Positions 29,209 to 61,443 of a stretch of 64,000 bases of DNA are shown here, in pieces. Origin of the DNA: Corynebacterium choanae (lineage in GTDB: Bacteria > Actinomycetota > Actinomycetes > Mycobacteriales > Mycobacteriaceae); the NCBI RefSeq assembly GCF_003813965.1, contig NZ_CP033896.1, positions 2,294,001-2,358,000 on the forward strand, read 5' to 3'. Under the pieces are notes generated by a model. It saw only the letters and a list, made by a program, of their open reading frames with translations. It had not been told where the DNA came from and did not search any database. Numbering within the stretch: position 1 is the stretch's first letter; each line of letters opens with the position of its first letter. A program made the position numbers and the translations under genes.

Positions 29209-30306
29209 CTACGAGTTTGCTGCGGTCACCAACGGAATCTCCACCTCTAGGGAGGGATCGCAACCGACCGTCAGCGGTGAAGGACCATATCCTTGGGCGA
29301 TAAGATGCGCTGCCAACGCGGCAATCATCACCCCGTTGTCGGTACACAGCCGCAGATCAGGAACCTGCAACGAAATCCCTGCACTGGTACAGCGTGCCTG
29401 AGCCAACTCCCGCAGCCGAGAATTCGCAGCCACTCCCCCACCGAGCAGCAGCACAGGGGCGCCCACATCCTGGCAGGCTCGCACCGCTTTTTTCGTCAAC
29501 ACGTCCACCACCGCTTCCTGGAATGAGGCACACACATCCTCGACCACTATGGTGGTTCCTTCGCGTTCCGCTGCTTCAACATAGCGGGCAACCGCTGTTT
29601 TCAACCCGGAGAAAGAAAAATCATATGCCTGATCGGCGCGTTTCATCAGTCCACGGGGAAAAGCGATCGCCTTCGGATTGCCGTGTTTAGCAAGACGGTC
29701 AATAACCGGCCCACCCGGATACCCAAGCTCAAGCAGCCGCGCCACTTTGTCATAGGCTTCCCCCGCAGCATCGTCCAAGGTTGCGCCGAGCTCTTTCATC
29801 GGTTTACCGATACCGTGCACTTCTAAAAGTTGGGTATGTCCACCGCTCACCAGCAGCGCTACTGCATGCGGTAAATCTGGTACACCGGCAAGTGTCGCCA
29901 CCGCAACATGTCCACCCAAATGATTCACCCCATAGAAATCGACCCCCCACGCGGCCGCATAGGCCTTAGCTGCGGAAGCACCTACCAGTAGCGCCCCAGC
30001 CAAGCCGGGGCCGACGGTAGCGGCAACAACATCTGGTCGACGAATACCAGCTTCATCTAATGCTTGCCGCATCACCGGCCCGATTGCCTCCAAGTGCGCC
30101 CGAGAAGCAATCTCGGGAACAACTCCGCCGAACCGGGCGTGCTGCTCCATCGACGATGCGACACAATCGGCCAGAATCTCCAGCTGCGGACCTTCATCAG
30201 CCATGGAAAGTCGAATAATGCCTACACCTGTTTCATCACACGAGCTTTCCACACCCATGATGATCTTCGACTCACCAACGCGACTATCGATAAGCGATGC
30301 AGGCAC
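29209..30306 (-). CDS. tsaD: tRNA threonylcarbamoyladenosine transferase TsaD
   Basis: Transfers threonylcarbamoyl to A37 of ANN-reading tRNAs, acting with TsaB and TsaE. 365 residues from a GTG with GGAG eight bases upstream. Kae1 fold motifs: [33 protein letters not shown] (metal-binding His pair), [43 protein letters not shown] and DNGVMIA. Complete and typical. The partners tsaB and tsaE lie 7-8 kb upstream on the same strand with rimI and a large surface-protein gene between; in related genomes these genes are adjacent. Confidence 0.96.
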
Positions 30307-30582: not shown

Positions 30583-31047
30583 CTAGCTCACTGATGGTTG
30601 CCGAAGCATGACAAACGCATCGGCACCGGAAGGTTGATAATACTGTTTCCGCAGCCCTACCTCGACGAAACCACGACTCTCATAGAGTCGAATAGCAGTT
30701 ACATTATCTGTGCGGACTTCAAGCAGAAACGGTGCGTGGTGCCGATCCACAAACTCGACTGCCGTATCAAGGAGCAGTTTGCCGAGTCCTTGCCCTTGCT
30801 CAGAGGGATCTACACCGATGGTAAGCAGTTCAAATTCGGCATCTTCAACTGTGCCCCGCAAGGCGATAAGGCAATATCCAACTAGCACATTGTCAGTGTT
30901 GACCACCCCGAATGCGCGTGTGAAAGGGCTGGCGAGCTCAGCAGCAAAGATTGCCTCACTCCACGGCGAATCCGTTGGAAATAGCACCTGCTCGAGTTCT
31001 GCAAGCCTGGGCAGATCTGCAGGAACAAGGTCGCGTAACTGTGCCAT
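30583..31047 (-). CDS. rimI: RimI-like GNAT N-acetyltransferase
   Basis: Acetylates the N-terminal alanine of ribosomal protein S18 in E. coli; actinobacterial RimI has a broader range. 154 residues from the ATG at 31047 (MAQLRDLVPADLPRLAELEQ), which matches the family N-terminus; a GTG at 31083 would add 12 residues. Acetyl-CoA loop LTIGVDPSEQGQGLGKLLLD, and C-terminal NVTAIRLYESRGFVEVGLRKQYY. It lies 276 bp upstream of tsaD on the same strand. Confidence 0.92.
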   Translation of the reverse strand: MAQLRDLVPADLPRLAELEQVLFPTDSPWSEAIFAAELASPFTRAFGVVNTDNVLVGYCLIALRGTVEDAEFELLTIGVDPSEQGQGLGKLLLDTAVEFVDRHHAPFLLEVRTDNVTAIRLYESRGFVEVGLRKQYYQPSGADAFVMLRQPSVS

Positions 31048-31408
31048 AAAGGTCACCGTGCTGCTTTCGAAAAAGATAGCCACGACATCATTGCGTGTTG
31101 CGTGGCGGCGGGTTGGCCATCTGCGCCATTGTAGCCGGCATTGTCATCAAACAACGTGACCCGGCACTGTTGGTCTATCTCCCCACCCGTGTGGGGAATT
31201 GGGCGTTTGGTAACCAGCTTCAATCGCCTTGAAAATTACCATCAGCTAGCTTCAGCTCGCTTTGGCAAAATGTTCTTTGTTCCAACGAGAACTTGCTCTT
31301 ACCACAGGGACGGCTGCTTGCTTGCGGCTGACTATTCACGTCACCTTATTCTCATACTGCGAGGAATCTTCTGAATCAGGTTCAAGCATCACTCGCAGCC
31401 ACCAACGA

Positions 31409-32178: not shown

Positions 32179-35100
32179 TTAGCGCTGAGTACGGTAACCC
32201 ATGTTCCAGGCTGCACTGGCGATGAAGTCAGCCATGTTGCGTGGCCAACCCTGTGCGACCAGCTGGTCACGCAGTGGTTCATCGATGCCGCCACCGAGGA
32301 TGATCGCGCCACCGAAACCAGTCTGGTGGTTAGCAGCGAATCCGATGACTGCGGACAGTGCACCAAGAGCCAACAGGATCGGGATGATACCTGCGCCGGA
32401 GGATCCGGAGGAGATGGTGTCGATGTTCACTACACCAGAGGAGAGGCCACGGCCTGCACCATTTTGATCTTCCTCGCCTGGCTTTGGCTTGGTGTTCTCT
32501 TTTGCCTCGGTGTCATCGAGATCAGCCTTGCCGTTTTCGGCATTGGTGTAGCCGTCCGTGATGCCAGGATTCGCGAGACCATCGCCATCAGTATCGGTGG
32601 CGGTCGAAGGAACGTTTGACTCTTCACGGTTGCTCTTACCGTCTTGGTCGAAGTCCTCCTTACCGTCATTGATTCCGTTGTTGTCGGAATCCTTGTCGTA
32701 AGGATCAGATCCGATTGCCTTCTCGTCGTCGTTATTCACGCCGTCGTTGTCAGCATCAGGATCGTTCTTGTTCAGTTTGCCGTCACCGTCGAAGTCGTCG
32801 TCACCACCGGTCTTGTCTGGTCGGTGATCTTCACCGTTGCCACCAGGCTTTTTACCAGGGAATTCAGGGTCAATCAGATCGGCTTTATTGTTCTTATTCT
32901 CATCGGTGATACCGGTATCGCCGAGGCCGTCACCGTTGTTGTCAGCGACCTTGCCGCTAGGAACCTCCGACTCATAGGCATTGTTGTATCCATCACCGTC
33001 GGAATCTTCCGAGCCATCGCGGATACCATCTTTGTCAGTATCAGGCTCGAGCGGATCCAGACCGGCAGCGATTTCGTCATCATTGCTGACTCCGTCGTTA
33101 TCGGCATCCGGATCTTGTGCATTTGGAATACCGTCGTGATCGCGATCCCCTTCAGGGCTCTTCGGATCGATCTCAGAGCCACCGTTTCCGTTATTGCCGC
33201 CAGTGGAACCAGATCCCGGATAGTCAGGATCGTTGAGGTCAGCTTTACCGTTGTTGTTCTTATCGGTGATCCCGGTGTCGGCGATCCCGTCACCATCAAC
33301 GTCGGTTACCGAACCCGATGGAACTTCCGACTCTTTGGCGTTGCTAACGCCGTCGTTGTCTTCGTCCTCATCGCCATCAAGGATGCCGTTGTTGTTTGAG
33401 TCTGGGTTCAATGGATCCAGACCAGCTTTGATCTCGTCAGTGTTGCTGACGCCATCGTTATCTGCGTCAGGATCGGTTGCATCTGGCTGACCGTCACCAT
33501 CAGTATCGGTACCATCCCCGGTGTTTCCACCGGAAGTACCAGGATATTCATCATCGACGAGGTCAGCTTCTTTGTTTCCGTTCTTGTCGGTGATGCCAGT
33601 ATCGGCAAGACCGTCGCCATCAACGTCGGTTACCGAACCCGATGGAACTTCCGACTCTTTGGCGTTGCTAACGCCGTCGTTGTCTTCGTCCTCATCGCCG
33701 TCACTGATTCCGTCGTTGTCCGAATCATTGTCGAACGGATCCAGGCCAGCAGCTTTCTCGTCGTCGTTATTTACGCCGTCGTTGTCTGCATCCGGATCAT
33801 TCTTATTCAGGATGCCGTCACCGTCAAAGTCATCATCGCCACCGGTCTTGTCATCGTTGTGATCACCCTTTTGAGGATATTCATCATCGATGAGGTCAGC
33901 TTCTTTGTTTCCGTTCTTGTCGGTGATGCCAGGATCGGCAAGACCGTCGCCATCCTTATCAGTCACAGGACGTTGCGGAATGACTGACTCTTCAGCATTT
34001 GTGACTTCATCACCGTCGGCATCCTCATTGCCGTCAGGAGTACCGTTGTCGTCAGTATCCGTGTCGAACGGATCCAGACCAGCAGCTTTCTCGTCGTCGT
34101 TATTTACGCCGTCGTCGTCAGCATCCGGATCATTCTTATTCAGGATGCCGTCACCGTCAAAGTCATCATCGCCACCGGTCTTGTCATCGTTGTGATCACC
34201 CTTGTGAGGATATTCATCATCGATGAGGTCAGCTTCTTTGTTTCCGTTCTTGTCGGTGATGCCAGTATCGGCAAGACCGTCGCCATCAACGTCGGTTACC
34301 GAACCCGATGGGACTTCCGACTCTTTGGCGTTGCTAACGCCGTCGTTGTCTTCGTCCTCATCGCCGTCACTGATTCCGTCGTTGTCCGAATCATTGTCGA
34401 ACGGATCCAGGCCAGCAGCTTTCTCGTCGTCGTTATTTACGCCGTCGTTGTCTGCATCCGGATCATTCTTATTCAGGATGCCGTCACCGTCGAAGTCATC
34501 ATCGCCACCGGTCTTGTCATCATTGTGATCACCAGTTTCGACCGAACCGCCGGCTTCGGTACCGTTTTCGTTTTCGGTCGGCTCCTTAGGGCCATTGCCG
34601 TCTGGATCGGTGGTACCGGGCTTGTAGCCGTCACCACCGACGGTGCCGTCGCCACCGTCGTTTTTGGCATCTTTGTTTACGCGACCTGGAATGGTCGTGA
34701 TGATGGTGTCGCCATCTTTAAAGTTGCGAACAAAGTTGATGACGGCCTTGCCGTTTTCAACGGTGTACTCAAAGTCGACACCCGGGATCAGCGAATTGCC
34801 GTTCTGCGTGATGTTTGGAGTTGCGTTGTCAGTGAACGGAGCGTCCGGATCTTCGTTGATAGTGATGCTCGGGCGGCTCACGTTACCTTCAGTGACCTTG
34901 GAGGTGGCCTTGTAGGTAACAGGAGCACCGTCCTTTAAGTTCTTTCCAGCAACAGATTTACCGTCCGCCCCAAGAATTTCAACGTTGGTGTTGATCTTGC
35001 CGTTGAACTCTGGCACTTCGGTGCTTGCGCGCTCGATCGAACCCCAGTCAGCGCTCGAGGTACCCAGCGGAAGTGCAACTTGACGGTCACCTTCGGTGTA

Positions 35101-36498
35101 GTAGAAGGACATCTGAACTGGTGCCTTGTTCAGTGCACGAGCCATGGTGTCTGGGTCAGCACTTGCTTCATCGACAGGGATGTCAGCAATGGTTGCCGAG
35201 TTAAACGGCGCGGATGCAACTGGGTTGATGTACTGGTTAGCGTTTGCCTGTACCCAGTTTTGGTGGTTGTCCGGGTTATCTGGGGAGATCCAGACATCGC
35301 CGTTTTTATCAAACTTGCTGACAGGCACGAGCACTGGAGCCTCGAACGGGCCGTGGTTTTCAGCGTCGATGTACGCCATGGCCTGCCACACTGTGATGTT
35401 CTCTGCAGTGACGTGCTTCAGGATTTCCGGATCAATGTGCAGCTTCAAGCGGTAAGGCTTGGCCTTCTGGGTGAACCCAACACTAATCGTGTTATACGAG
35501 TAACCAGCATGTGGCTGCAATTGCATCGCACGAACCACAGTGGTGCCCGCGTCAGCAGCAGCTTGTTGCTTGGCGCCGGTCGCAACCTGATTACCTTCAG
35601 ACTGCTTCAGGTTCAGCGTAGTGTTAGCCTTCAACCAGTCGGTCCAGCTACGAGAGTCATCCGACGGAAGTTCAGCAGTGGTGAGGTCAACGACGGTACC
35701 CGAGGATGGGCTTTCGGCGAGCACTGCCTTCTTACGACGCAGGAACCAATCGTCGTAGTTGTTTTGCCAACGAGCGTAAGCGTTGAAGGAAGAGCCCTCT
35801 TCCTTGATGATCTCCTCAATCGGCTTATCCAGCTGCACGATTGTTTCGCCAACCAGGTTGTAGTTTTCAACCGGAACGTCGGTGAACACACCCCAGTTAC
35901 CGGAAAGCGCCTTGCGTTCGAAGACATCAGCACCGGTAGCCGGAATAAGCGCCGACTTCGCATCGTTGAGCACGCGCCACACGGTGCCATCGCCTTGTGC
36001 GTATGGATCCTCGTCGCCCTTCTGTGCACCGGTGACCAGGTTGATGTGCCCCTTCATACCGGGGACAACCTTTTCAGCGTAGCGGGTGTACCGGACGGTC
36101 GGCGAAGCTTGCCCCTTGTCCTGTGCCATCACGGAGATCCCGGTGATGTGCTTTGCCAATGCCGGATCGAACTTCAGGTAGATCCACTCTTGGCGGGGCG
36201 AAAGCGATGCACGGTAGAGGAGGTTCAGTTTGAATGCGGTCGGAGTCACCGTACCGGCGTATTCAACACCGGTCTGCACGATGATGCCTTCTTTACCAGC
36301 CGACCAGGTGTCGTAGCCCTTAGGGAAGGGCCATGCAGAGTTGTTCAGCGCTTCAGCACTTGCGACAGGTGCAGCAGTGAATGGGGTGTCCACCGCGTGT
36401 ACCACTGGCATTGCCAGGGCGACGGAGCACACAGCGGCAATCATCCGAGTGCGGCTGCGGCTTGAAAACAGGCCAACTTTTTTGTGGCTCTTGCTCAT
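32179..36498 (-). CDS. Large secreted surface protein with thrombospondin type 3 (calcium-binding) repeats
   Basis: 1439 residues from the ATG at 36498 (MSKSHKKVG), with GGAAGGA upstream. A signal peptide ends near VVHA. Residues ~45-620 form a large region of unknown fold (two copies of an STIxGF/ITVMAQ-like beta segment are suggested: LYLKFDPALAKHITGISVMAQ and RLKLHIDPEILKHVTAENITVWQ). Residues ~655-1333 hold six acidic TSP3-type modules dense in DxDxDG loops (for example DPDADNDGVNNDDE), the first three each 111 residues. Near 1363-1390 is a hydrophobic segment (IIPILLALGALSAVIGFAA), then a conserved-looking 45-residue end (EPLRDQLVAQGWPRN). There is no LPXTG sorting signal. It interrupts the rimI-tsaB neighbourhood. 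A role as a calcium-dependent adhesin or envelope spacer is inferred. Confidence 0.9.
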   Translation of the reverse strand: MSKSHKKVGLFSSRSRTRMIAAVCSVALAMPVVHAVDTPFTAAPVASAEALNNSAWPFPKGYDTWSAGKEGIIVQTGVEYAGTVTPTAFKLNLLYRASLSPRQEWIYLKFDPALAKHITGISVMAQDKGQASPTVRYTRYAEKVVPGMKGHINLVTGAQKGDEDPYAQGDGTVWRVLNDAKSALIPATGADVFERKALSGNWGVFTDVPVENYNLVGETIVQLDKPIEEIIKEEGSSFNAYARWQNNYDDWFLRRKKAVLAESPSSGTVVDLTTAELPSDDSRSWTDWLKANTTLNLKQSEGNQVATGAKQQAAADAGTTVVRAMQLQPHAGYSYNTISVGFTQKAKPYRLKLHIDPEILKHVTAENITVWQAMAYIDAENHGPFEAPVLVPVSKFDKNGDVWISPDNPDNHQNWVQANANQYINPVASAPFNSATIADIPVDEASADPDTMARALNKAPVQMSFYYTEGDRQVALPLGTSSADWGSIERASTEVPEFNGKINTNVEILGADGKSVAGKNLKDGAPVTYKATSKVTEGNVSRPSITINEDPDAPFTDNATPNITQNGNSLIPGVDFEYTVENGKAVINFVRNFKDGDTIITTIPGRVNKDAKNDGGDGTVGGDGYKPGTTDPDGNGPKEPTENENGTEAGGSVETGDHNDDKTGGDDDFDGDGILNKNDPDADNDGVNNDDEKAAGLDPFDNDSDNDGISDGDEDEDNDGVSNAKESEVPSGSVTDVDGDGLADTGITDKNGNKEADLIDDEYPHKGDHNDDKTGGDDDFDGDGILNKNDPDADDDGVNNDDEKAAGLDPFDTDTDDNGTPDGNEDADGDEVTNAEESVIPQRPVTDKDGDGLADPGITDKNGNKEADLIDDEYPQKGDHNDDKTGGDDDFDGDGILNKNDPDADNDGVNNDDEKAAGLDPFDNDSDNDGISDGDEDEDNDGVSNAKESEVPSGSVTDVDGDGLADTGITDKNGNKEADLVDDEYPGTSGGNTGDGTDTDGDGQPDATDPDADNDGVSNTDEIKAGLDPLNPDSNNNGILDGDEDEDNDGVSNAKESEVPSGSVTDVDGDGIADTGITDKNNNGKADLNDPDYPGSGSTGGNNGNGGSEIDPKSPEGDRDHDGIPNAQDPDADNDGVSNDDEIAAGLDPLEPDTDKDGIRDGSEDSDGDGYNNAYESEVPSGKVADNNGDGLGDTGITDENKNNKADLIDPEFPGKKPGGNGEDHRPDKTGGDDDFDGDGKLNKNDPDADNDGVNNDDEKAIGSDPYDKDSDNNGINDGKEDFDQDGKSNREESNVPSTATDTDGDGLANPGITDGYTNAENGKADLDDTEAKENTKPKPGEEDQNGAGRGLSSGVVNIDTISSGSSGAGIIPILLALGALSAVIGFAANHQTGFGGAIILGGGIDEPLRDQLVAQGWPRNMADFIASAAWNMGYRTQR
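33535..34533 (-). repeat. Three near-identical 333-bp direct repeats in the surface-protein gene
   Basis: Units 34201-34533, 33868-34200 and 33535-33867 each begin with the codons for GDHNDDKTGGDDDFDGDG (the third continues into GTSGGN). Long stretches are identical at the DNA level, suggesting recent duplication and possible copy-number variation. Three more diverged modules follow to about 32500. Such repeats are also a risk for assembly collapse. Confidence 0.85.
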
Positions 36499-37179: not shown

Positions 37180-37881
37180 TTAAGTGTCCGAACGTGGCGG
37201 TAACGCGCTCGAACGGGGTTTGCGCGCCGGTTCCTTCGCGTCCGGTCGCCGCAGATACAGCGCCACCAGTGGCTCAGGCGGTTCGGCAAGGTTAGCAACT
37301 GAAGCTAAAGCTATGGGCGTGGGATAGGTTTCCACCACGGTACTCGTTGCGAATGCCTCTACTGCCGCATCGGTGAGGCCTGCCGCAGCAGCTACCAAGC
37401 CGACCTGGCCGGCATACTGCTCAATAATCGCATCGGGTCGTCCAACATTAGGTTCAGTAATTCTTTGACCATCCCGATACGTTGCGTAATACCACTCACG
37501 GCGACGTGCATCGGTGACAACTAGTAGATCCCCCAAGGATGATGTGCCAGCAACGCACTGACCTACAGCGCTAGCAGCCATTGCATCTAAAGTGCACACC
37601 GGCCAAACAGGAATATCCAACGCATCAGCATAAGCTTGTGCCGTAGCCATCCCCACCCGTAAACCGGTGAAAGGCCCAGGGCCACAGCCAGCAACGACAC
37701 CAGCAAGATCAGCAGGTGCCGCGGCAATCGCGGCGAGCGCCTCACCGATAGCAGGCACCAAACGTTCGTTGTGGTGACGGCATGCATGAACCGTGGTCTC
37801 AGCGAGAACCCGCCGAGCATCGGTATCAACAAGACCAACCACAAGAGAAGGCGTCGCAGAGTCAATGGTGAGAATCAGCAC
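37180..37881 (-). CDS. tsaB: t6A biosynthesis protein TsaB
   Basis: Scaffold partner of TsaD in t6A synthesis. 233 residues from the GTG at 37881 with AGGATTGAG just before; the longer frame adds no family residues. Kae1-like N-terminal half: LILTIDSATPSLVVGLVDTD, HHNERLVPAIGEAL, GCGPGPFTGLRVGMATAQAYADAL. The C-terminal half is variable and ends in a Lys/Arg/Pro-rich tail. tsaE is 233 bp upstream on the same strand. Confidence 0.94.
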   Translation of the reverse strand: MLILTIDSATPSLVVGLVDTDARRVLAETTVHACRHHNERLVPAIGEALAAIAAAPADLAGVVAGCGPGPFTGLRVGMATAQAYADALDIPVWPVCTLDAMAASAVGQCVAGTSSLGDLLVVTDARRREWYYATYRDGQRITEPNVGRPDAIIEQYAGQVGLVAAAAGLTDAAVEAFATSTVVETYPTPIALASVANLAEPPEPLVALYLRRPDAKEPARKPRSSALPPRSDT

Positions 37882-38113
37882 ATACTCAATCCTATGCCAC
37901 ACCCCCGCCAGGCAATAACCCAAAAAGAGACCATACTAAAACCCCTGCAAGCACGCACCCCGCAGGGACGCTGTTGAGGTGGTCTTCCAGCGCGACGCAA
38001 CTTGGATTTCACCACCGCGACCTCGCAGCGTTCCAACCCCCACACTATGTGCAGCAGCAGTCCCCGGCGTGTACTACACCACAGCAGTCAAGCATTATTT
38101 CAGCATTGGTTGA

Positions 38114-45685: not shown

Positions 45686-46126
45686 CTATCGCTGCAGAAT
45701 GCTGCCAATCACACCGTTTCGTCGTCGCTGCTTACGACCACCGTTGCCGACCTGTTGTGAGATGTCACCATCGGCGGCAGCAGGTAATTGAGGGGATTTC
45801 GAAGCAGCTGGACGAAGGCTAGAGTTCATCGCCCTGCCTGCAGATAAATTACCGGCTTGCTCCTCAGAATCCCGATGTGGTGCGCTTAGCCACGATGGCA
45901 GGCCACTGCCGCGCTCCGGCAACCTCCGTTGTTGAGACGTTCCCGGAACAAATCCGGACTGCTGTGCTTGTTGGGATTGTTTGCCAGATTGCTGCCCTGA
46001 AAGAGTTTTCTCTGCAGCCCGTTCGGCGGCTTGCACAGCTTGGGTTACGGTGGCGTCAAACTTGGCAAGCTGGGCTTGCAACTTTCGTTCAAAGTCGGCC
46101 GAAATTGCCGCAAAATCGTTACTCAC
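45686..46126 (-). CDS. Hypothetical protein with basic C-terminus, ESX-4 accessory cluster
   Basis: 146 residues from a GTG that overlaps the preceding gene's TGA (GTGA). The N-terminal ~45 residues form an amphipathic helix (FAAISADFERKLQAQLAKFDATVTQAVQAAERAAEK), the middle is Gln/Ser-rich, and the end is strongly basic (GGRKQRRRNGVIGSILQR). No known domain. Translational coupling to the Ala/Pro-rich gene shows that the two work together; it could be a chaperone or partner of that protein. Confidence 0.7.
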   Translation of the reverse strand: MSNDFAAISADFERKLQAQLAKFDATVTQAVQAAERAAEKTLSGQQSGKQSQQAQQSGFVPGTSQQRRLPERGSGLPSWLSAPHRDSEEQAGNLSAGRAMNSSLRPAASKSPQLPAAADGDISQQVGNGGRKQRRRNGVIGSILQR

Positions 46127-48111
46127 CAGGTTCCTGCCTTTCGAATTTGCTCAGTTGGTGAAGATGTTGGTGCTGCGACACACACGGGTTGCGGTGGAGC
46201 AGCTGGTGTCTGCGGGATTCCTTTCGTGTGCACCTGCGGTGCAGCAGGTTCCGGTGGTGGCGGAGCCGGTGCAGGCGCCGGGGCTGGTGCTGGTGGGGCA
46301 GCTGCTGCTGGCTGTGTTGGTGGTGGGGCGGGTGCAGGTGCCTCCGGGGCTGCCGCAGGTGGCTGTGGCAGGAAATGTTCAATCGCGTCATGAATCTGCC
46401 GGTTCACCATGTCGATAAACCCACCTAGCTGGGTCGACAGCAAACCGATACCGACCGTGCCGATGACTTTCGTCGCAATCGAAGTAAGGTCACTGCTGCC
46501 AAATAGTGTGCTAAATATTTCTGTCGCGACTGTGCCAAGCCCACCAAGCAACCCTCCAAAGACCGATCCAGAGCTGCCGCTGCTACTTCCCGATTCGGCA
46601 GTATCCGATTTGTCACTGGATTGCTGATCAGTGCTGCTGTCGTCGTGATCCTTAGCAGCATCACTGTCGCCAGTGGGGCTATCCGGCTTCTGCGGCTTGT
46701 CATCTTCGCAGTCTTTTGTGGACTCTGCTTCAGCAGTGTGTTCGGGGCTTGCTGCATTGTCGCATTGATCCTGCCCGCTACTGCTCGTCGCAGGTGTTTC
46801 ACCATCTGTGGTGTTGACGGTCTGCTTACTGTCTCCGGATGCTTCACCGTGTTTCGCGGGGTCACAGTCGGTAGTTGTATTGTCTGAGGTTTTTGCTGAT
46901 TGTCCGGCAGTGCCCCGTTGATCAACCCCTCCAGTTCCACGGCCGCAGCTACTGCCGGATCCGCTGGTTGCCGGTGGAGTATTCCCTGCCGCCTGGGTGG
47001 CTAGCCCGCCACCTGTTGTTGCTTTGCCACCCGTGTCCGATGATGTTCCACGGTTTGCCTGGTCAGCGCAATTTGGTTCTGCTGCAGTACTGGGAGAGGT
47101 CGGTGTTGGGCATTGTCCCGGATTAGGTGCCACTCCTTGCGGTGTTGTAGTACCTGGAACCGTGCTGGATCCTGCCCCAGCAGGGGGCGGCGGTGGTGTT
47201 GCAGGCTGGCTTGCCGGTGGGTTCGACGGCGGTGCGGGTGGCGCTGCAGGTGTCCCAGCCTGAGGCGTGGTTGGTGCGACAGGCGCCCCAGCCTGAGGTG
47301 TAGTGGGCGCCGGTTGATGGTCTGCAGGTGCGTCTTTCTCCGCGCCGTCACAGTGGCAATCCTTGTCATGAGCCGGCCCCTTGTCATCAGCAGGAGGCTG
47401 CTCATCGTCAGATTGCCCCTTCCCCGGTTCACACTCCCCTGCAGCATTCGCATCGGCCGACCCTTTATCCTGTCCAGCAGCGCCGGGACGTTGGGCAGCC
47501 AGGAGCGCCTCTAGCACGCGTAGCAGCTCTTCATATACTGCTGCAAATGACTCATCCCGGGCACGCAACACTGCAACAATGCCCTGCCCAATATCATCGA
47601 CCAGCCTTACCGCATTGTCATAGATTTCCAGCGCCGCAGCTTGATCATACGGGTAAAGGACGTGCGCATTCGTCACCAAGGTTGGAACGACGACCGTCAA
47701 GGCATGTTCAAAATTTTTCAGCTGCAGCACCGTTAAATCCTCTAGCTGCCGCAGCGCATCTTCTGCTTCATCCGCGGATTGATCGGCCTGCCCTAAACCC
47801 TGCAAACGGTGTAAAAACTCGGCTGCTTTAGGAATAACGTTGCTCAACACTGACACGATTGTCAGCGGCATGTTCAACAGGTCAACTGCTTTACCGAGTT
47901 TGCCCTTCGAACTTTTCGCCTGTTTGGCGGTTTGCCGAACAGCACCCCCTACTGCCGCCGGATCAAACCCTGCAGTGTGACTAAGTAGTGTCTCCACCTG
48001 GCCAACCCCAACCTGTGGGCCGCGATAATAGCTAGCCAGTGGCGACTGCTGCAGCATAGCGATGGCCTGGGCATATTGACTACCGATTGTGCTTGCCGTT
48101 GACGTTGTCAT
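46123..48111 (-). CDS. Large Ala/Pro-rich ESX-4-linked protein (Rv3439c-like position)
   Basis: 662 residues, with GAGGGGG before the ATG. Residues 1-205 are helical and resemble an ESX/PPE-like substrate head (QYAQAIAMLQQSPLASYYRGP, DLLNMPLTIVSVLSNVIPKAAEFLHRL, QLKNFEHALTVVVPTLVTNA). Residues ~210-520 are a low-complexity Pro/Thr/Gly/Ser/Asp spacer with scattered single Cys and a DKDCHCDG cluster. Then comes a Gly-rich hydrophobic segment (VFGGLLGGLGTVATEIFSTLFG, VIGTVGIGLLSTQLGGFIDM), and the end is Ala/Pro-rich. No signal peptide. The position corresponds to Rv3439c (alanine- and proline-rich) of M. tuberculosis. Export by ESX-4 is an inference. Confidence 0.75.
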   Translation of the reverse strand: MTTSTASTIGSQYAQAIAMLQQSPLASYYRGPQVGVGQVETLLSHTAGFDPAAVGGAVRQTAKQAKSSKGKLGKAVDLLNMPLTIVSVLSNVIPKAAEFLHRLQGLGQADQSADEAEDALRQLEDLTVLQLKNFEHALTVVVPTLVTNAHVLYPYDQAAALEIYDNAVRLVDDIGQGIVAVLRARDESFAAVYEELLRVLEALLAAQRPGAAGQDKGSADANAAGECEPGKGQSDDEQPPADDKGPAHDKDCHCDGAEKDAPADHQPAPTTPQAGAPVAPTTPQAGTPAAPPAPPSNPPASQPATPPPPPAGAGSSTVPGTTTPQGVAPNPGQCPTPTSPSTAAEPNCADQANRGTSSDTGGKATTGGGLATQAAGNTPPATSGSGSSCGRGTGGVDQRGTAGQSAKTSDNTTTDCDPAKHGEASGDSKQTVNTTDGETPATSSSGQDQCDNAASPEHTAEAESTKDCEDDKPQKPDSPTGDSDAAKDHDDSSTDQQSSDKSDTAESGSSSGSSGSVFGGLLGGLGTVATEIFSTLFGSSDLTSIATKVIGTVGIGLLSTQLGGFIDMVNRQIHDAIEHFLPQPPAAAPEAPAPAPPPTQPAAAAPPAPAPAPAPAPPPPEPAAPQVHTKGIPQTPAAPPQPVCVAAPTSSPTEQIRKAGTW

Positions 48112-49810: not shown

Positions 49811-51118
49811 TTAGCGTTGACGTTGCGGCTGTTGCGCAGCGATAGACGTGACCTGAAGATGCGAATCGGGTTGGATCCGGACAGTGTTGAACACCCGTCC
49901 ATCAGCCTGATCAGCTGCAAAATCGGTAAAGGACAGTTTCCACAAACCTTCCCAGGACTGTCCTGGTTGAAGTTGCATTGTCCCATCGACCTGTTGCACC
50001 GGCTGTTGGACTGCAGACCATTGAACGTTAGCACCGCCAAGTTGGGTTTCCCCATCCCCAAGCAGATCGACTGTGCTGCCATCGGGTGCGGTGAGCACCA
50101 CATGCGCATCCGGACCTAAATCGTCACGGGCAATGACAGTAAAACGGACAGCATCGATGGAATCATCGAGCATCACATCGAACGATTCACTGGCTACCCG
50201 CTCCCCGGATGCTGCACCCGGGGTCCCGAGTGCCTGCCGGAAGGAAGCAAACAGCGAACCTGCACTGTTAGCCGGGTAGAACGCGCCAAAAGCGGGCAGC
50301 TCACCGCACCGCTCCCCTTCCCCGGAAGTGACCCCTTTAAACAAGGAGAAATCGGTCGGGGCGTTACTCTGCGACAGCCCAATACCCACGTGGTAAATAC
50401 CGGCCGACCGAATTTGATCCGCTAAACCTCCGGGGCGACAAATCGCATCTTTGGCCTCCACATCTGCACTGGCAGGGCCTTCCGCGGTGAGTGCACCGTC
50501 AGTAAAGGTGACCAGCATTTTGCATGCATCCGGCTGTTCGGATCGGGAAAAATCTTCATACGCACCTGCGAACGCATTAGCGTAGTTGGTGTACAGCTCG
50601 CTATCACGGTCAGCCTGGGCGGCGATTACCGAATTGATTTTGCTCAACGACGACTCATTCAATGCTGTCCAACCACCATAGGTGCCACCGGCACCAGGAG
50701 CCGCGTTATACAACTGACCGAAACCGGCCACCCGCACGTTGGTGGCAAAACCCTCATCTTGCTGCTTGATCAACAGCTGTTCCACAAATTGTTGGGCTGC
50801 AGGTACGCGGGCATCATCCGGGTCGGTGCCGGGCCGATCACGATGAATCTCACCGCCGGCAACTTCATGCTTGAGTGGCTCTGTCTCATCCATCAAAATG
50901 AGCACGTCAAATGAGATACCTACAATCCCGGCAAGTAACCAAGAAACGAACGAACCAATATCCCTGGCACCGTCAGTGGCGTGATAAAGCACCGCCACCA
51001 CAATCGAACCGATAAGACCATGTGCCCCACAGACTAGCGAAGGCAAAAGGGCATTGTTCGCTTTGCCCACCCGAGTTGCGCCTACTGCATTGGTATCTAC
51101 CGGATCAAAAGGCTCCAC
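49811..51118 (-). CDS. VWA-like membrane-anchored protein, possibly 5'-disrupted
   Basis: 435 residues from a weak GTG at 51118. Two hydrophobic stretches (ALLPSLVCGAHGLIGSIVVAVLYHA and FVSWLLAGIVGISFDVLILM) lead into a VWA-type domain: FDVLILMDETEPL (MIDAS start is DxT rather than DxSxS), a central FGQLYN, and CKMLVTFTDGALT. The C-terminal part (FRQALGTPGAAS, then FTVIARDDLGPDAHVVLTAPDGSTVDLL, and WEGLWKLSFTDF) is beta-rich. Upstream, two other frames carry gene-like N-terminal sequence (51097-51332), so the gene may be longer and frameshifted. It occupies the place where glmM follows rpsI in related genomes. Confidence 0.7.
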   Translation of the reverse strand: MEPFDPVDTNAVGATRVGKANNALLPSLVCGAHGLIGSIVVAVLYHATDGARDIGSFVSWLLAGIVGISFDVLILMDETEPLKHEVAGGEIHRDRPGTDPDDARVPAAQQFVEQLLIKQQDEGFATNVRVAGFGQLYNAAPGAGGTYGGWTALNESSLSKINSVIAAQADRDSELYTNYANAFAGAYEDFSRSEQPDACKMLVTFTDGALTAEGPASADVEAKDAICRPGGLADQIRSAGIYHVGIGLSQSNAPTDFSLFKGVTSGEGERCGELPAFGAFYPANSAGSLFASFRQALGTPGAASGERVASESFDVMLDDSIDAVRFTVIARDDLGPDAHVVLTAPDGSTVDLLGDGETQLGGANVQWSAVQQPVQQVDGTMQLQPGQSWEGLWKLSFTDFAADQADGRVFNTVRIQPDSHLQVTSIAAQQPQRQR

Positions 51119-54766: not shown

Positions 54767-56566
54767 TCATTCTGCAGGTGGCGGCGGTGCTCCAGGGGCT
54801 GGCCGCACAGCAGCGGCAACCCGTCGACACAGTTCGAGCTGTGACGGCGCCAAGCTTTGGCGGGCGTGACATCCCACCGATAGTCGGGTTGCCCCCTCGA
54901 CCCAGGTCGCCCAAATAACAGCGGATCCATCTCCTGGCCGTTCGGTGTAGCTAATCACCGGTTTGTCTTGGGGGCGCAGAAGCGTGGCTGTGGCGCCGAG
55001 TTCAACCATGGGATCGGCTAGCAAGGCACGAGTGATAGCGATCTGAGGATCTTGATCACCATCAACCACCGGGTCAGCGGCGATAATCATGCGAACATCG
55101 GCAGCCTCGTTGCGTAACACATAGGATCCGTCGGGTTGGGGATCAGCATGAAACCCGTCAGGGATTTCAAATTCCACTTGTGCATCGCGAATGTGCCGCT
55201 CGGGTGCACCTTGCGGATCGCTGGGAGGCGACAGCATCGGCAGGGAGGGGGTCGGTTGAGTTGGTGCTGTTCTTTCGGTTGTGACGGCAGGCTGCGTCGG
55301 TCTCTTGGACGTGGACGTCTGGGGTGTGTTTGATCGTTGAGGTGTAGTGTCTGATTCCGAATGAGACGGCACCCCCAGCATGATTCCCAGCATGGCGGCG
55401 CTGCACACCACGGCAATACCAGCGAAAACCAACACTGGTGTGCTAATCCGATTAGGGTGCTGACGAAGTCGACGCCTACCCGATGCCTTTGATTGGCCGC
55501 CTGCCCGTCGAGAGTGACGCTCTGACTGATTGGTGTGTTGCGCGGGACGTAGCGGGGTGAGGCGCTGTGGTCGATGTCGGCGGCGCGACGGTGTTTGCGT
55601 ATGGAGAAACTGTTCGGTTAGTCCTGCCTGTTCATCGTGCAATGGTGCCGGTGCAAGTAACGGAGTTTCTTGCTGCGCCGAAAATTGGGTAATTGTTGCT
55701 GCACTGTCGCCCGGGTTGGGCGATGTCATTGTGGGTGCTGCAACTGCACTCGTTAACAGCGTTTCGTTTGCGAGCATCTGATGCGCAGTGGGCAGTTGTG
55801 GGTTATCGTCGCAGTTCGCAGATTGATTCCCCACTTCGCCTAACAACGCGATTGGAGAATCATCTCCAATAGCGTCCAATGATTGGTCGTCTAGAGGTGT
55901 GACATCCGGCAGTCCACCGGAGGCAGCATTCCCATTTTCTTGGTCTGCACGCTGATTGTGCTCGGTGAAGCTTTCTGTGGTGATTCGGTCATCACCTATT
56001 TCTGTGGAAAGCAGTGCGTTCATCGGCGCTTTTTCGCCGACTACCTCCGACTCCTGCAAATACCTCGGATAAGACGACGTGGTGGCGTCGTCTGTTTCGC
56101 GGTCTGTAGCAGGATCTGTTACCGAATTCGGTTCAATTGCAACACCTGTCCGCTGGTCTGTGTGCAGCAGGTGCACTACCGCATCATCCGCCGTAGGGCT
56201 GCCTGGTGAACAATATCGGGCAGCAATTCCCGCTTCCTCGAGTGCTTCGGCAAAGGCCGTGCACGCAGAAGCATCACCGGCCAATTCCACCGGATCGTCA
56301 GCACAAGGATCAAACACTATCTCTTTCAGCTGTTCCACTGCAGCGGGGATCGCCCAGCCTTGGCAGATACCAAGTGCTGAAATATCTTGTCGTACGAGTG
56401 TTTCCCGTCCTCGGAATACCGTCCGGTCGGCAGTGATCTCCACCGAGACTCGACGCTGGTGGTGTTGATCATTTGGTAACTGGATCACTGTGGCCGACTG
56501 TGATGACGGTTGGATTGCAGCGTTTTTAGTTGGAAGTACCGTGTTGTTGTTACTACCAGCCATCAT
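54767..56566 (-). CDS. Type VII secretion-associated protein, Rv3446c family
   Basis: 599 residues, with AAGGGGGC before the ATG pair. A folded N-terminal domain (VSVEITADRTVFRGRETLVRQDISALGIC) is followed by a long acidic Thr/Asp-rich region, then basic Arg-rich sequence, one membrane segment near 375-400 (TPVLVFAGIAVVCSAAMLGIMLG), a Pro/Thr spacer and an exterior C-terminal domain (VEFEIPDGFHADPQPDGSYVLRN, VIWATWVEGATRLSVGC). This plan is that of the ESX-4-linked Rv3446c family, whose role is not established. It lies 41 bp after eccC in the same operon. The middle region is longer than usual. Confidence 0.82.
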   Translation of the reverse strand: MMAGSNNNTVLPTKNAAIQPSSQSATVIQLPNDQHHQRRVSVEITADRTVFRGRETLVRQDISALGICQGWAIPAAVEQLKEIVFDPCADDPVELAGDASACTAFAEALEEAGIAARYCSPGSPTADDAVVHLLHTDQRTGVAIEPNSVTDPATDRETDDATTSSYPRYLQESEVVGEKAPMNALLSTEIGDDRITTESFTEHNQRADQENGNAASGGLPDVTPLDDQSLDAIGDDSPIALLGEVGNQSANCDDNPQLPTAHQMLANETLLTSAVAAPTMTSPNPGDSAATITQFSAQQETPLLAPAPLHDEQAGLTEQFLHTQTPSRRRHRPQRLTPLRPAQHTNQSERHSRRAGGQSKASGRRRLRQHPNRISTPVLVFAGIAVVCSAAMLGIMLGVPSHSESDTTPQRSNTPQTSTSKRPTQPAVTTERTAPTQPTPSLPMLSPPSDPQGAPERHIRDAQVEFEIPDGFHADPQPDGSYVLRNEAADVRMIIAADPVVDGDQDPQIAITRALLADPMVELGATATLLRPQDKPVISYTERPGDGSAVIWATWVEGATRLSVGCHARQSLAPSQLELCRRVAAAVRPAPGAPPPPAE

Positions 56567-56607: not shown

Positions 56608-59600
56608 TTATTTAGAAGCCTCACTGCGCAACGGCGAGTATTGCGTTGATGCAGCCGATTGCACATCGCCAAGTTCCCCTGTTGGCGGTGTCGATCTGTC
56701 ATCTACCAGCTGCCGGCTCGTTGTGGGATGAGGACTTCCTTCAGGATCAATGATGGTGGCATCCGCTGGCATCGCTTGCTCCGTTGCCAGATCTGCAGCT
56801 TCCTGTGTGGAATTTTGGTGCTGGCGCTGGTTTTCTTTACTCCCCATGTCATCGAGTTGTTTCTCGCCCGCGGTGAGCTCGTCGCCGACTAGCGCATTGT
56901 TCGACTCCGTTTCGGTAGCCGTGCTCCCGTGATCTGAATGGTCGGGGTGATCACCAGCTGGCACTGCATGCTCGCCACGAGGTTGTTCGTGCATTTGAGT
57001 TTGGACTGCAGGTAGCAAAATCTGACATTCACCGACAATGTCGCCGTCGATACTGACCGTCGCCCGGCCGGGGGCGAAATGTCGGGGTTTGATTCCAAAA
57101 AGGGATCCTTCTTCCCTATCGCAGTCAAGTAACACCACAACCGGGGTGCTATCTTTCACCGCACTGATCAGCGGATCCCACATTGCGCGAGCCGCCCCAC
57201 CAGTTTTTCGCGCTATGACGAGATGTAAGCCAATGTCTTTCGCATGCGGAATTAACGGCACTAGAGGGTGTAATGCGCCGTCCGGAAGCAGATCAAAGTC
57301 ATCAACTAAAACAAAGAGTTCTGGTCCTTGCCACCAGGAGCGCGCCCGCAATTGTTCCGGACTGATATCTGCCGAAGGTAGTCGGCGCTGCAATGTAATT
57401 TGCAGATCCTTGATTGCTGTCACAATCTGATCGGCACTGCTGGCATAGGCTGCGATCATGTCCTCTTGAAATGCGCCAAGATGTCGACGTCGTGGATCAA
57501 TCACCACCAGCCGGGCATGAGACCGATCCATGGTTGATAGTTGTTCTGCAACAGTTGCCAGCATTGTTGATTTCCCGGCACCGCGGGCACCGAAGCACAC
57601 CAAGTGATCTTGTCGATCCGGGTTGAAAACTACTGCGCTGAGTAATGGTCCACCGATAGCAAATGTCACCGGTTGGCTAGTGTCGACTGTGGTCGTTTCA
57701 ATGGCTGTGGGAAGCATGCGCAGCGGGCGGGTCGGAATATCGCCGCGAGCAGCCGAATTAGCTGCGATCTCTGCGATGAGTGCATCGTCAACTGTGGTGA
57801 ACTGCATAGGTTCCGCGTTATGCGTCAATCCTCTTCCCGGAATTGCCGGCAGCCGCTGTTGCGCTTTGCGATCGAGCACCGAATCGAGCGAATCGGTGAG
57901 ATGCAGTTCAAGGCGCAGGCCGATAACGTCTTTGATCGCTGGCCGCAGTAGTGCCCATCGTTGCACCGACAGCACCATATGCACTCGAGCCCCGAGACCA
58001 TCGGTGACAATTCGAATACATTGATCCGACAGATCAGTGTCGCCAAACTCTTGCATAAACCCTTGCCACCCATCAATCACCAGCAGGGTGTGTTCAGTGT
58101 CGTTGGCCGGCTGATCGATAAGTCCAATGACTTCCGCAATAATCCGCCGGATTTTTTCTTCCTCTCCCCGGCAAGCTACTGCTGCCACATGTGGCAACAT
58201 CGCTAGTTTGTCGAGCGCATGTCCTGAATAGTCGATGATGTACATCCGAAGCGTCGCGCTGGAATGGGTGGCTGCTAAACCTGCCAGGAGGGTGCGCAGC
58301 GCAGTTGATGTACCACTCCTTGGCGCGCCACACACAGCCACATGCCCGTTACTGCCGGTGAGCTGCACAACATAGGGGTCTTGACGCTGTAACCGTGGAC
58401 GATCAATAAGTCCGAGAGTTGCCGACATCTCACCGGCAGGTGGCTGCTGGATATCCCGTATAAACGGGGCGGCATCAATAACTGCAGGCAGGGGCGGCAA
58501 CCAGATTTGATGTGCCTTCAACTGTCGTAACGCGGCAGCGTCACTAGTGACCCGTACGGTGTAGTCGACCAATGTGGCATCCTGCTGGCCGGCAGTGTCA
58601 CCATATGTCGGGGAGGGAAGTTTCACTACTGCTTCGCTGAGCACATCCGCATGGGTAAACATTGTTGGGGCAGGCAGCTGATACATCGCTTCCACTGCAG
58701 CGGTGAGCTCGTTGTCAAGCTTGCCGGACACATAGGCTGCCTGAAATTGGGTCAACGCCTCAGCATCAGTGCGGAGAAGTCCCACACCTGGCTGCTGCGG
58801 AAGATGGTACGCGTCAACTACCCCTAAGACTTGTCGTGATTCTGCCGCAGAGAATGTTTTTAACCCGAGTCGATAGGACAGATGCGAGTCAAGGCCGCGC
58901 AGTCTGCCTTCCTCAAGACGTTGCGATGCAAGGAGGAGATGCATGTGGAGTGAGCGGCCGAGACGGCCGACAGCAGTGAACAGATCCGCAAAATCTGGAT
59001 GCTGTCCCAGCAGCTCAGAAAACTCGTCGAGGACAATCACCAGCGCTGGCAGCGGCGGCAATGCCGGATTGTTTTGACGCAGATGACGATAGTCGTCAAC
59101 GTTTTTACAATTCCCGGCGCGCCGCAGGAGTTCCTGGCGGCGATGCATTTCTCCTTCGATTGCTTCTTGCATGCGTTCTACTAGGACTGCTTCTTCTGCC
59201 AGGTTGGTGATCACCGCCGAAGTGTGGGGTAGCCCGTCAAGGCCTAGGAAGGTGGCGCCCCCTTTGAAGTCGACGAGTACGAAGTTCACGTCGTCGGGGC
59301 TGTGGGTGAGTGCTAGTCCTACGACAAGGCTGCGTAATAGTTCTGATTTTCCGGATCCTGTGGCTCCGATGCACAGTCCGTGTGGCCCGTAGCCGCCTTG
59401 GGCGGCTTCTTTCAGGTCGAGTACAACTGGGTGGCCGGTGGTGGTGACACCGATTGGGACGGCTAGTCGGGCTTTCGCGGCGAGGGGTGGCCACATGGCG
59501 GCCGGGGTGTGTTGTTGTGGACTGGTGATTCCGCACAGCTGCAGCATGCCGCTGCTCTGTCTACTGCCGGTGGTGATTGCGCGGCGGTAGCCGGTGAGTT

Positions 59601-60915
59601 GTCGGGCTGTTTCCCGGGCGAGGGTGAGACTGATGGTGTCGGCTTGTCCGAGGACTTCTTTCCCTGCTGCTGTTTCGACTGCTAGCTGGTAGCTGACGTT
59701 TTGGGTCGGGGATGGCGGTAGTGGGTGGTGTTGGGGCTGAAGGTGGCTGCGTTCCGGGGTTGGGTGTAGGCGGGTCAGCAAGGAGCGGAAGGGGTGCTTG
59801 AAGGTGGGTGTGGTGCGTTGACGGATGTGTTTCCGGCGGGTTACAGGTGGTAGCAGGTGTGGCTGTGTAAGGCCGCTTGTGCGACGTGATTGTTTGCGAT
59901 GTTTTGCTACTGCTGTGGTGGTTGTGTTGCTGGTGGGGGTTGGTGCCAGGTGCAGAATGAGTCCACTGTCGCGGGCTGCACGCCACAGGTTGCTCCCTGG
60001 GGTGGAGGCGACGTCGATGATGGTGTCGAATTCGCTGTAGTCGGTTGTGTTGTGCGGTCCTGCGTCGCCGATTACCAAAATGTGGTGGGCGTTGGTGTTG
60101 TTGCGGGCGGTGTGGCGGGCATGGGGTAGCCATTTCACCCAGTCGAATCCGGATCCGAGGGTGGTGATGGTGATACTGTCTGGGCCGTGGTGGAACGCCA
60201 GTTGCACGATAAGGCTGCGGGCCATGCCGGTTCGTCCGGGGCCGGTGAGCGCTATGACTGGGAAATCTGTCAGGGTGAGGCCGACTGGGCAGTCGGGTAC
60301 GGTGCTTACTGTGTCGATGACGTGGGCGGCGCTGATCGCACAGACCGGGTCTAGGTCTTCTGGGGCGCCTGGTTGGGCGAGTTGTACGGGGGTGGCCAGT
60401 GCTACTTCCCCGGTGGCGATCCGTACCCAGCCGAAGTCTTCCATTGTTTGGTCGCGTTCCCACAGCCGCGGGGTGTGCAGCATCGACCAAAGCGTTTCAG
60501 AGGCGGGAAATCGGTGGGTTAAATAGCGGCGTTGCTGCTGGCTGTGCTGTTGCGCTTGACGTCGTACTTGTTGTAGGTGTCGAAGATAGGTGCGACGGGT
60601 TTCGGTGACGTCCTCGGTTTGGTTACCGCCAAACATCGCTGCCATGCTGGCCAGCATCATCACTGGAAATAGCAGCATCATAGGGTTGAATCCGCCGCCG
60701 CGTAGCACCATCATGGCGATCATCGCACCGAAGACGACCACCATAATCAGTGGGAGGATCCACCGCATTAAGGGTTGTGGGCTGGGTTTTTCGGCGGCAG
60801 GTATCGCCTCGATTGCGATGTCACCGTGTGGGGGTTCTGGCCACGGGATTCGGTCGTCCATGGTGCGTATCGGAACAACCACTGCTTGCCGGGTGGCATG
60901 GTTCGGCGATGTCAT
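56608..60915 (-). CDS. eccC4: ESX-4 FtsK/SpoIIIE-type ATPase EccC
   Basis: Motor of the type VII secretion machine. 1435 residues from the ATG at 60915, with AAGGAG ten bases upstream. Two membrane segments near residues 50-100 (WILPLIMVVVFGAMIAMMVL, PMMLLFPVMMLASMAAMF). ATPase 1: Walker A GATGSGKS near 515 and Walker B VIVLDEFSELL near 625. ATPase 2: the P-loop reads GAPRSGTS (Lys lost) near 860 and Walker B LLVIDGW (Glu lost). ATPase 3: Walker A GARGAGKS near 1106, B LFVLVDDFDLL. A basic His/Arg/Thr/Pro-rich insertion is seen at about 320-415, and a hydrophilic C-terminal tail of about 100 residues follows the third domain. A fused EccCa-EccCb, as usual for ESX-4. Confidence 0.93.
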   Translation of the reverse strand: MTSPNHATRQAVVVPIRTMDDRIPWPEPPHGDIAIEAIPAAEKPSPQPLMRWILPLIMVVVFGAMIAMMVLRGGGFNPMMLLFPVMMLASMAAMFGGNQTEDVTETRRTYLRHLQQVRRQAQQHSQQQRRYLTHRFPASETLWSMLHTPRLWERDQTMEDFGWVRIATGEVALATPVQLAQPGAPEDLDPVCAISAAHVIDTVSTVPDCPVGLTLTDFPVIALTGPGRTGMARSLIVQLAFHHGPDSITITTLGSGFDWVKWLPHARHTARNNTNAHHILVIGDAGPHNTTDYSEFDTIIDVASTPGSNLWRAARDSGLILHLAPTPTSNTTTTAVAKHRKQSRRTSGLTQPHLLPPVTRRKHIRQRTTPTFKHPFRSLLTRLHPTPERSHLQPQHHPLPPSPTQNVSYQLAVETAAGKEVLGQADTISLTLARETARQLTGYRRAITTGSRQSSGMLQLCGITSPQQHTPAAMWPPLAAKARLAVPIGVTTTGHPVVLDLKEAAQGGYGPHGLCIGATGSGKSELLRSLVVGLALTHSPDDVNFVLVDFKGGATFLGLDGLPHTSAVITNLAEEAVLVERMQEAIEGEMHRRQELLRRAGNCKNVDDYRHLRQNNPALPPLPALVIVLDEFSELLGQHPDFADLFTAVGRLGRSLHMHLLLASQRLEEGRLRGLDSHLSYRLGLKTFSAAESRQVLGVVDAYHLPQQPGVGLLRTDAEALTQFQAAYVSGKLDNELTAAVEAMYQLPAPTMFTHADVLSEAVVKLPSPTYGDTAGQQDATLVDYTVRVTSDAAALRQLKAHQIWLPPLPAVIDAAPFIRDIQQPPAGEMSATLGLIDRPRLQRQDPYVVQLTGSNGHVAVCGAPRSGTSTALRTLLAGLAATHSSATLRMYIIDYSGHALDKLAMLPHVAAVACRGEEEKIRRIIAEVIGLIDQPANDTEHTLLVIDGWQGFMQEFGDTDLSDQCIRIVTDGLGARVHMVLSVQRWALLRPAIKDVIGLRLELHLTDSLDSVLDRKAQQRLPAIPGRGLTHNAEPMQFTTVDDALIAEIAANSAARGDIPTRPLRMLPTAIETTTVDTSQPVTFAIGGPLLSAVVFNPDRQDHLVCFGARGAGKSTMLATVAEQLSTMDRSHARLVVIDPRRRHLGAFQEDMIAAYASSADQIVTAIKDLQITLQRRLPSADISPEQLRARSWWQGPELFVLVDDFDLLPDGALHPLVPLIPHAKDIGLHLVIARKTGGAARAMWDPLISAVKDSTPVVVLLDCDREEGSLFGIKPRHFAPGRATVSIDGDIVGECQILLPAVQTQMHEQPRGEHAVPAGDHPDHSDHGSTATETESNNALVGDELTAGEKQLDDMGSKENQRQHQNSTQEAADLATEQAMPADATIIDPEGSPHPTTSRQLVDDRSTPPTGELGDVQSAASTQYSPLRSEASK

Positions 60916-61443
60916 AGCTTTGCTCCTTGTAGACCAGGGTTGGGCAGCACTTCGGAAAACCGATTGGTTGCTGCTAGCGAATCGTGCTGGGGTTTTCGGC
61001 ATCAGATGCTGCCGCAAGAGGCAGCGTTCGAGGGGTTAGTCTGGTTGGCTGCTGCAGATGGTTCCCATTGGTCGCCGCCTCGGCGGGTTTTTCCATGCTG
61101 TGTTTTTAGAATGTGCACCGCTGTGTGCTTTGGCGGGTTGTACGCCTACTGCCGGTGGCAGGTGTTTTGTTGGTAGCCGGAACCGTTGCGCTATTAGGGG
61201 AAGTCTCATTGTGTCGATGAGCGTGCACCGGTTGTGGCCGGTGCACAGTCAAACAATTCAGCAGCTGTCGCACGAACAGGTAATGCCAACATTTTTGCAG
61301 GGGTGAGGTGACTAGTTGTTGCCCCTCGTTGCGATCTGGTGAGGCATTGCTTGTGGGTGTGGTGGCAGCTGCTGATCGGGGCTTGGGAATCTTCGGGATG
61401 TTCGCCTGAGTTTCCCCAAACGATGACAGGTGGTTGAAGCACA
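60916..61443. other. eccC / eccD divergent promoter region
   Basis: 528 bp between divergent eccC and eccD. It should hold two promoters; none could be defined by eye. The minus-strand frame 61106-61450 is not coding-like. Confidence 0.4.

Follow-up and report, generated by a model that had tools for sequence, protein, structure and literature searches.

Gene and protein architecture

The DNA analysed here, referred to as the window, is a stretch of 64,000 nucleotides from Corynebacterium choanae (contig NZ_CP033896.1, positions 2,294,001 to 2,358,000). At 32179..36498 on its minus strand lies a gene for a predicted secreted protein of 1439 amino acids (aa), here called the window protein; all of its features described below are on the same strand. 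A sequence-only reading of this DNA had reported the protein, and the gene was found to be real with an intact frame. Its ATG was preceded by GGAAGGAACGAAAG, and the plus strand of 32179-36498 contained stops. The domain order was signal peptide, head, Ig-like neck, stalk, hydrophobic helix and tail. The signal peptide was placed at residues about 1-48 (36355..36498) from the sequence and the hydrophobic residues 18-38, with cleavage likely after ASA. In 19-residue windows, only 18-38 and the segment 1366-1390 exceeded a Kyte-Doolittle value of 1.6, which bore out the proposed signal peptide and single further hydrophobic segment, and the full sequence had no LPXTG, as had also been read. The whole protein gave only weak stalk matches in Pfam and NCBIfam (TSP3_bac, and CglD, whose 14.1 bits fall far below the cut-off of 400) and no match in the PDB at E ≤ 0.01. 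An Rfam search gave no match. There were 3 promoter-like sites (mean of shuffles 3.4) and 9 terminator-like sites (mean of shuffles 6.4, standard deviation 2.3), and neither was used as evidence.

Head domain, paralogs and distribution

By profile and structure comparison the head (residues 48-492; 35023..36357), about 445 aa long, is assigned as a Bap/Esp-type tandem DEv-Ig. Lobe 1 covers about 60-262 (35713..36321) with the motif YLKFDPALAKHI at 107, and lobe 2 about 290-485 (35044..35631) with the motif LHIDPEILKHV at 353; both limits are approximate and were set by eye. A seven-member head profile compared with 177,635 PDB sequences had two matches, Esp at E 5.8e-5 and Bap at E 0.034, and no others, and the same pair gave the top structural matches of a poor-quality head model. 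The head was thus not of "no recognised family" as first described, although no Pfam or NCBIfam family recognises it. The lobe-1 part of the profile matched both Esp lobes, and the internal beta repeats noted in the N-terminal region accordingly fit a two-domain tandem; the direct comparison of head halves with hhalign was only suggestive (score 20.6, E 0.037; maximum of 40 column shuffles 19.95). The computed isoelectric point (pI) of the head family was 4.5-5.5.

Five head copies were found in the genome itself, namely the window protein and paralogs B, C, D and E. Paralog B (659 aa) has the head and the same C-terminus as the window protein with only two acidic loop sites. In paralogs C (2168 aa), D (1880 aa) and E (1875 aa) the chain closes with LAVTG followed by a hydrophobic stretch and basic residues, and all three carry Rib/RibLong repeats; the head of D is diverged. 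Protein F (757 aa) of the same genome has TSP3-like modules and is headless. Searched singly against the PDB, heads D and G gave no match and head E matched only at E ≥ 1. A search of the seven heads at E ≤ 5 returned He_PIG for one head (E 0.77) and a ribosomal L3 model for one head (E 0.064), which were set aside as chance or as an Ig insert of one member.

Among 242 Corynebacterium genomes, heads were present in two, the own genome with five copies and C. spheniscorum with two, as counted by a single-protein search and a profile built with members of both genomes; none was found in the remaining 240. Searches of 61 relatives and of 397 genomes sampled from the order gave no match outside the own genome. 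TSP3_bac matches occurred in 56 of the 242 genomes (52 above the cut-off), so this kind of stalk is common, in contrast to the rare head. Both C. spheniscorum members (L022:1-3882 and L023:8972-11848) are partial, being cut by contig ends. In protein-database searches, where about 8000 candidates were scored, region 30-620 returned no match, profile A1 (the six-member head profile made without paralog D) returned one C. spheniscorum protein, and the full-length query A4 returned four proteins, all listed with TSP3_bac. Absence in these searches is weak evidence because of the number of candidates scored and because the results did not include even the window protein.

Neck and acidic stalk

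The neck module (about 495-620; 34639..35016) was delimited by alignment at 39-44% identity and BLAST, and was called Ig-like by inspection. Paralog C has this module too, and C. spheniscorum contains three or more copies of it. The stalk that follows (residues 626-1345; 32464..34623) consists of six TSP3-like acidic modules, identified by repeat search and loop count. At the DNA level, six tandem copies of a 300-nt unit, each with at least 60% identity, lie at 32506-32805, 32857-33156, 33217-33516, 33541-33840, 33874-34173 and 34207-34506. The six modules of the earlier description were thus recovered as repeats, and only their likeness to TSP3 could be retained, with TSP3_bac (PF18884) scoring 16.7 bits over 5 stretches, under the curated cut-off of 25 bits. 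Apart from this weak match Pfam recognised no repeat in the stalk, and no Ig- or Rib-like repeat stalk was present beyond the one Ig-like neck. In protein order, the first and third modules (34207-34506 and 33541-33840) shared 99% of their DNA sequence, whereas identity to the reference was 61-84% for the remaining four. This pattern suggests that modules recombined recently and that the stalk probably varies in length.

The dense DxDxDG loops reported previously were confirmed, with 35 D-x-[DN]-x-[DN]-G sites in the stalk; when its residues were shuffled 1000 times, the average was 3.19 sites and the highest count 10. The first of these loops is at 631 in the window protein, after the Ig-like neck, at 485 in paralog B and at 460 in D. 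The net charge of the stalk is -177. Judging from these loops, the stalk probably binds calcium. For the proposed calcium-stiffened rod, a calcium-loop stalk is plausible while rigidity is no more than possible, as a low-confidence model of two modules was mostly coil. A Foldseek search with the model of the stalk and C-terminus gave a best E of only 3.6.

C-terminal helix and tail

The hydrophobic helix at 1366-1390 (32329..32403), defined by hydropathy and profile, follows a Ser/Gly-rich linker and is a recurrent corynebacterial C-terminal module. In the genus set, the linker-and-helix profile matched 27 of 242 genomes at E ≤ 0.01, the own genome included, with many of the matches weak. The open reading frame (ORF) ended at most 153 aa from the start of the match in all 27 helix-module loci read, and at most 60 aa in 22 of them. 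A 49-aa tail (1391-1439; 32182..32328) with predicted helices at 1406-1415 and 1420-1438 completes the protein. In a second model, with an overall predicted local distance difference test (pLDDT) score of 49.6, the helix appeared at 1372-1390 with low pLDDT (about 30-36), and the two tail helices had a block pLDDT of 70-80. The net charge across 1346-1439 is 0 with no positive cluster past the helix.

The C-terminal 95 residues were found in one of the 242 genomes, in two genes, the window protein and paralog B. These two were 69% identical at the C-terminus compared to 41% in the first 483 residues, which suggests selection on the C-terminus. The C-terminal profile had a single PDB match (E 0.25), taken as chance. 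In C. glutamicum, PS2 is held in the mycomembrane by a C-terminal helix according to excerpts of PMC12337289, and further proteins anchored in a PS2-like manner are named in excerpts of PMC12021427, which put the mycomembrane at about 7 nm. Like PS2, the window protein has near its C-terminus a low-complexity linker and then a hydrophobic segment of about 25 residues (1366-1390), and by this analogy a link with the mycomembrane is plausible.

Genomic placement

The upstream neighbour at 37180..37923 (minus strand) matched the Pfam TsaD family with 91.4 bits and is tsaB-like; we take it to be tsaB. The downstream neighbour at 30583..31083 (minus strand) is a rimI-like acetyltransferase (Pfam Acetyltransf_1), presumably rimI, and tsaD (Pfam TsaD, 294 bits) lies at 29209..30306 on the minus strand. 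The rimI neighbour was present in 37 of 37 genomes, with loci given for 30. In all 28 other genomes measured, tsaB and rimI were adjacent with -6 to 279 bp between alignment ends; the remaining two of the 30 loci were the own locus, too short to include tsaB, and one in which no tsaB was found. In the window the two genes are 6.1 kb apart with the window-protein gene between them, which shows it to be an addition to a conserved cluster. As for traces of insertion, no repeat of 12 or more nucleotides was common to both intergenic flanks, and one inverted 11-mer was seen. Family members recurrently adjoin housekeeping genes: paralog B (L019:1711-6738) lies immediately downstream of a groEL-like gene, and an EF-G-like gene adjoins paralog C (L020:5743-15504), both gene names being assigned by eye.

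Elsewhere in the window, an FtsK/SpoIIIE ATPase (56608-61017) and an EccD-like transmembrane protein (61444-62871) were identified, which suggests an ESX/type VII secretion locus. The ORFs beside them (46123-48111, 49811-51118 and 54767-56566) had no Pfam match at E ≤ 0.001.

LAxTG proteins and the helix module

Two sortases and at least 12 LAxTG sortase-type proteins are encoded in the genome; for six of these LAxTG proteins the open frame has 3414-3956 codons. Besides C, D and E, the LAxTG ORFs are at positions 306979, 533072, 2233485, 2520961, 2637685, 2707197, 2786512, 2799794 and 2810338 of G000:C1 (L128-L136). The helix module followed by a Pro-rich spacer and LAVTG was present in paralogs C, D and E and in two proteins of another genome, with the LAVTG sorting signal 51 aa past the related helix in C. 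All 12 own-genome LAxTG ORFs matched had an upstream hydrophobic segment, ten of them above threshold in a row scan (32-51 aa upstream), E by hydropathy and D by eye. This second hydrophobic segment sits between the Ser/Gly-rich linker and the Pro-rich spacer. In 6 of the 12 the match started no earlier than profile position 46, so that for the most part the helix was not what selected them. Of the 19 LxxTG rows printed for other genomes, 8 had an upstream segment over threshold (36-105 aa upstream) and 11 did not.

The linker and helix may, tentatively and with less than even probability, form a general corynebacterial module for crossing the mycomembrane, by which the LAVTG paralogs would be fixed in the mycomembrane and also covalently in the peptidoglycan, and in the window protein and B a conserved helical plug would replace the sortase anchor. 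Such a double anchor is a lead and not a result, because the LxxTG rows are a biased sample (earlier matches were the reason for choosing most of the 50 genomes) and have no monoderm control.

Interpretation

The features observed here, namely the architecture, the resemblance of the head to Bap and Esp in both profile and structure comparisons, the set of paralogs and the recurring helix module, are best explained, with somewhat better than even confidence, by a Sec-exported fibrillar adhesion or biofilm protein with a Bap/Esp-type head, a calcium-binding stalk and a PS2-like helix in the mycomembrane. After export by Sec, the Ig-like neck and the six acidic TSP3-like modules, with calcium bound, would keep the head away from the cell, the C-terminal hydrophobic helix would insert in the mycomembrane as for PS2, and the small helical tail would lie on the inner side of the mycomembrane. 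By analogy with Bap and Esp, the head may drive cell-cell or surface adhesion and biofilm build-up through ligand binding, calcium- and pH-dependent self-assembly, or both.

The PDB profile match of the head is a sum of segments that are each weak alone, and confidence was limited for this reason. The six-member profile A1 missed both Bap and Esp in the PDB; its sole match, SH3BP5 (E 0.3), was taken as chance. As the head model is poor, the DEv-Ig assignment depends on the agreement of profile and structure. At the other end, the 49-aa tail past the helix departs from a PS2-like anchor, and the protein ends in Arg and not in the C-terminal Phe of PS2.

As an unlikely alternative, the hydrophobic segment could be a conventional stop-transfer sequence that anchors the protein in the cytoplasmic membrane, with a cytoplasmic tail and a stalk that only crosses the wall; at 25 residues the segment would be long enough. 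However, the net charge of 0 across 1346-1439 with no positive cluster after the helix does not favour it, the helix and later LAVTG signal in C, D and E would need two successive stops in the cytoplasmic membrane, and the helix module resembles others near the C-terminus, as described in the excerpts on PS2. It is less probable still, and doubtful, that the window protein is mainly a released matrix protein whose head is cut off and aggregates, the anchor serving only for display before cleavage. Excerpts of PMC7785521 and PMC11792866 describe Bap as processed, with an N-terminus that self-assembles at acid pH and low calcium, and the head pI would suit such behaviour; the conserved C-terminus, however, argues for the importance of attachment. 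Decay of a paralog of the LAVTG-anchored giants by loss of the sortase signal is very improbable: LAVTG is kept in C, D and E and absent here, and the family is multi-copy with recombining stalk modules (see modules 1 and 3), but the frame is intact for 1439 codons and the alternative C-terminus shared by two paralogs looks maintained.

With the fibrillar adhesin in the mycomembrane as the preferred explanation, the proposal of a novel adhesin or mycomembrane fibre stands in its surface-type architecture, adhesin-like fibrillar role and plausible mycomembrane link, while its novelty was overstated. A "candidate new surface structure" is too strong a term because the head is Bap/Esp-type by profile and structure; a fibrillar-adhesin variant with such a head is the better description. 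If this is correct, the Bap/Esp biofilm head extends to a diderm with mycolic acids, where it is combined with a TSP3-like stalk and another kind of anchor. The paralogs, with the same head and a related helix with or without LAVTG, provide a testable case for the passage of surface proteins across the mycomembrane. Should the double anchor hold, Bap/Esp-type heads would be placed outside the mycomembrane, with a hint of how single-chain surface proteins traverse it. From the five own-genome heads and the two partial C. spheniscorum members, an initial profile is also available for a head family missing from Pfam and NCBIfam.

Comparison with known systems

Among the titles and abstract starts returned by searches of open-access literature, no report was found of Bap/Esp heads in Corynebacterium or of a double mycomembrane-plus-sortase anchor. 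The text of a fibrillar-adhesin paper (PMC8286594) contains neither "Corynebacterium" nor "thrombospondin", and "Corynebacterium" is absent from the text of a BAP paper (PMC11099085). Excerpts of sources including PMC7785521 and PMC11792866 describe the Bap/Esp head for Gram-positives, among them staphylococci, enterococci, streptococci and lactobacilli.

Region B of Bap (Staphylococcus aureus) and the N-terminal region of Esp (Enterococcus faecalis) have, like the window protein, a tandem DEv-Ig head of about 450 aa, and all are multidomain surface proteins with repeats. Acidic calcium-type loops come after the initial domains in Bap and Esp; in the window protein the first such loop lies past the Ig-like neck. 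In contrast, the head of the window protein is too diverged for detection from a single sequence, and the protein has a TSP3-like stalk, no LPXTG and a mycomembrane host; its LAVTG paralogs do have Rib/RibLong. The sortase-anchored fibrillar adhesins (Rib/RibLong giants) occur in the same genome with the same head family in C and E and a diverged form in D, whereas the window protein and B are without LAxTG. PS2 (CspB), the surface-layer protein of C. glutamicum, likewise has a low-complexity linker leading into a hydrophobic segment of about 25 residues at the C-terminal end, and belongs to a mycomembrane organism. However, PS2 is all-helical and lattice-forming with a terminal helix and Phe as its last residue, according to excerpts of PMC12337289 and PMC12021427, whereas the ectodomain of the window protein combines a head that matches DEv-Ig proteins with TSP3-like modules, and 49 aa follow the helix. 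Finally, Corynebacterium TSP3-repeat surface proteins (Pfam TSP3_bac) have acidic DxDxDG stalks in common with the window protein, which differs from them in scoring below the Pfam cut-off and in carrying a Bap/Esp-type head seen in 2 of 242 genomes.
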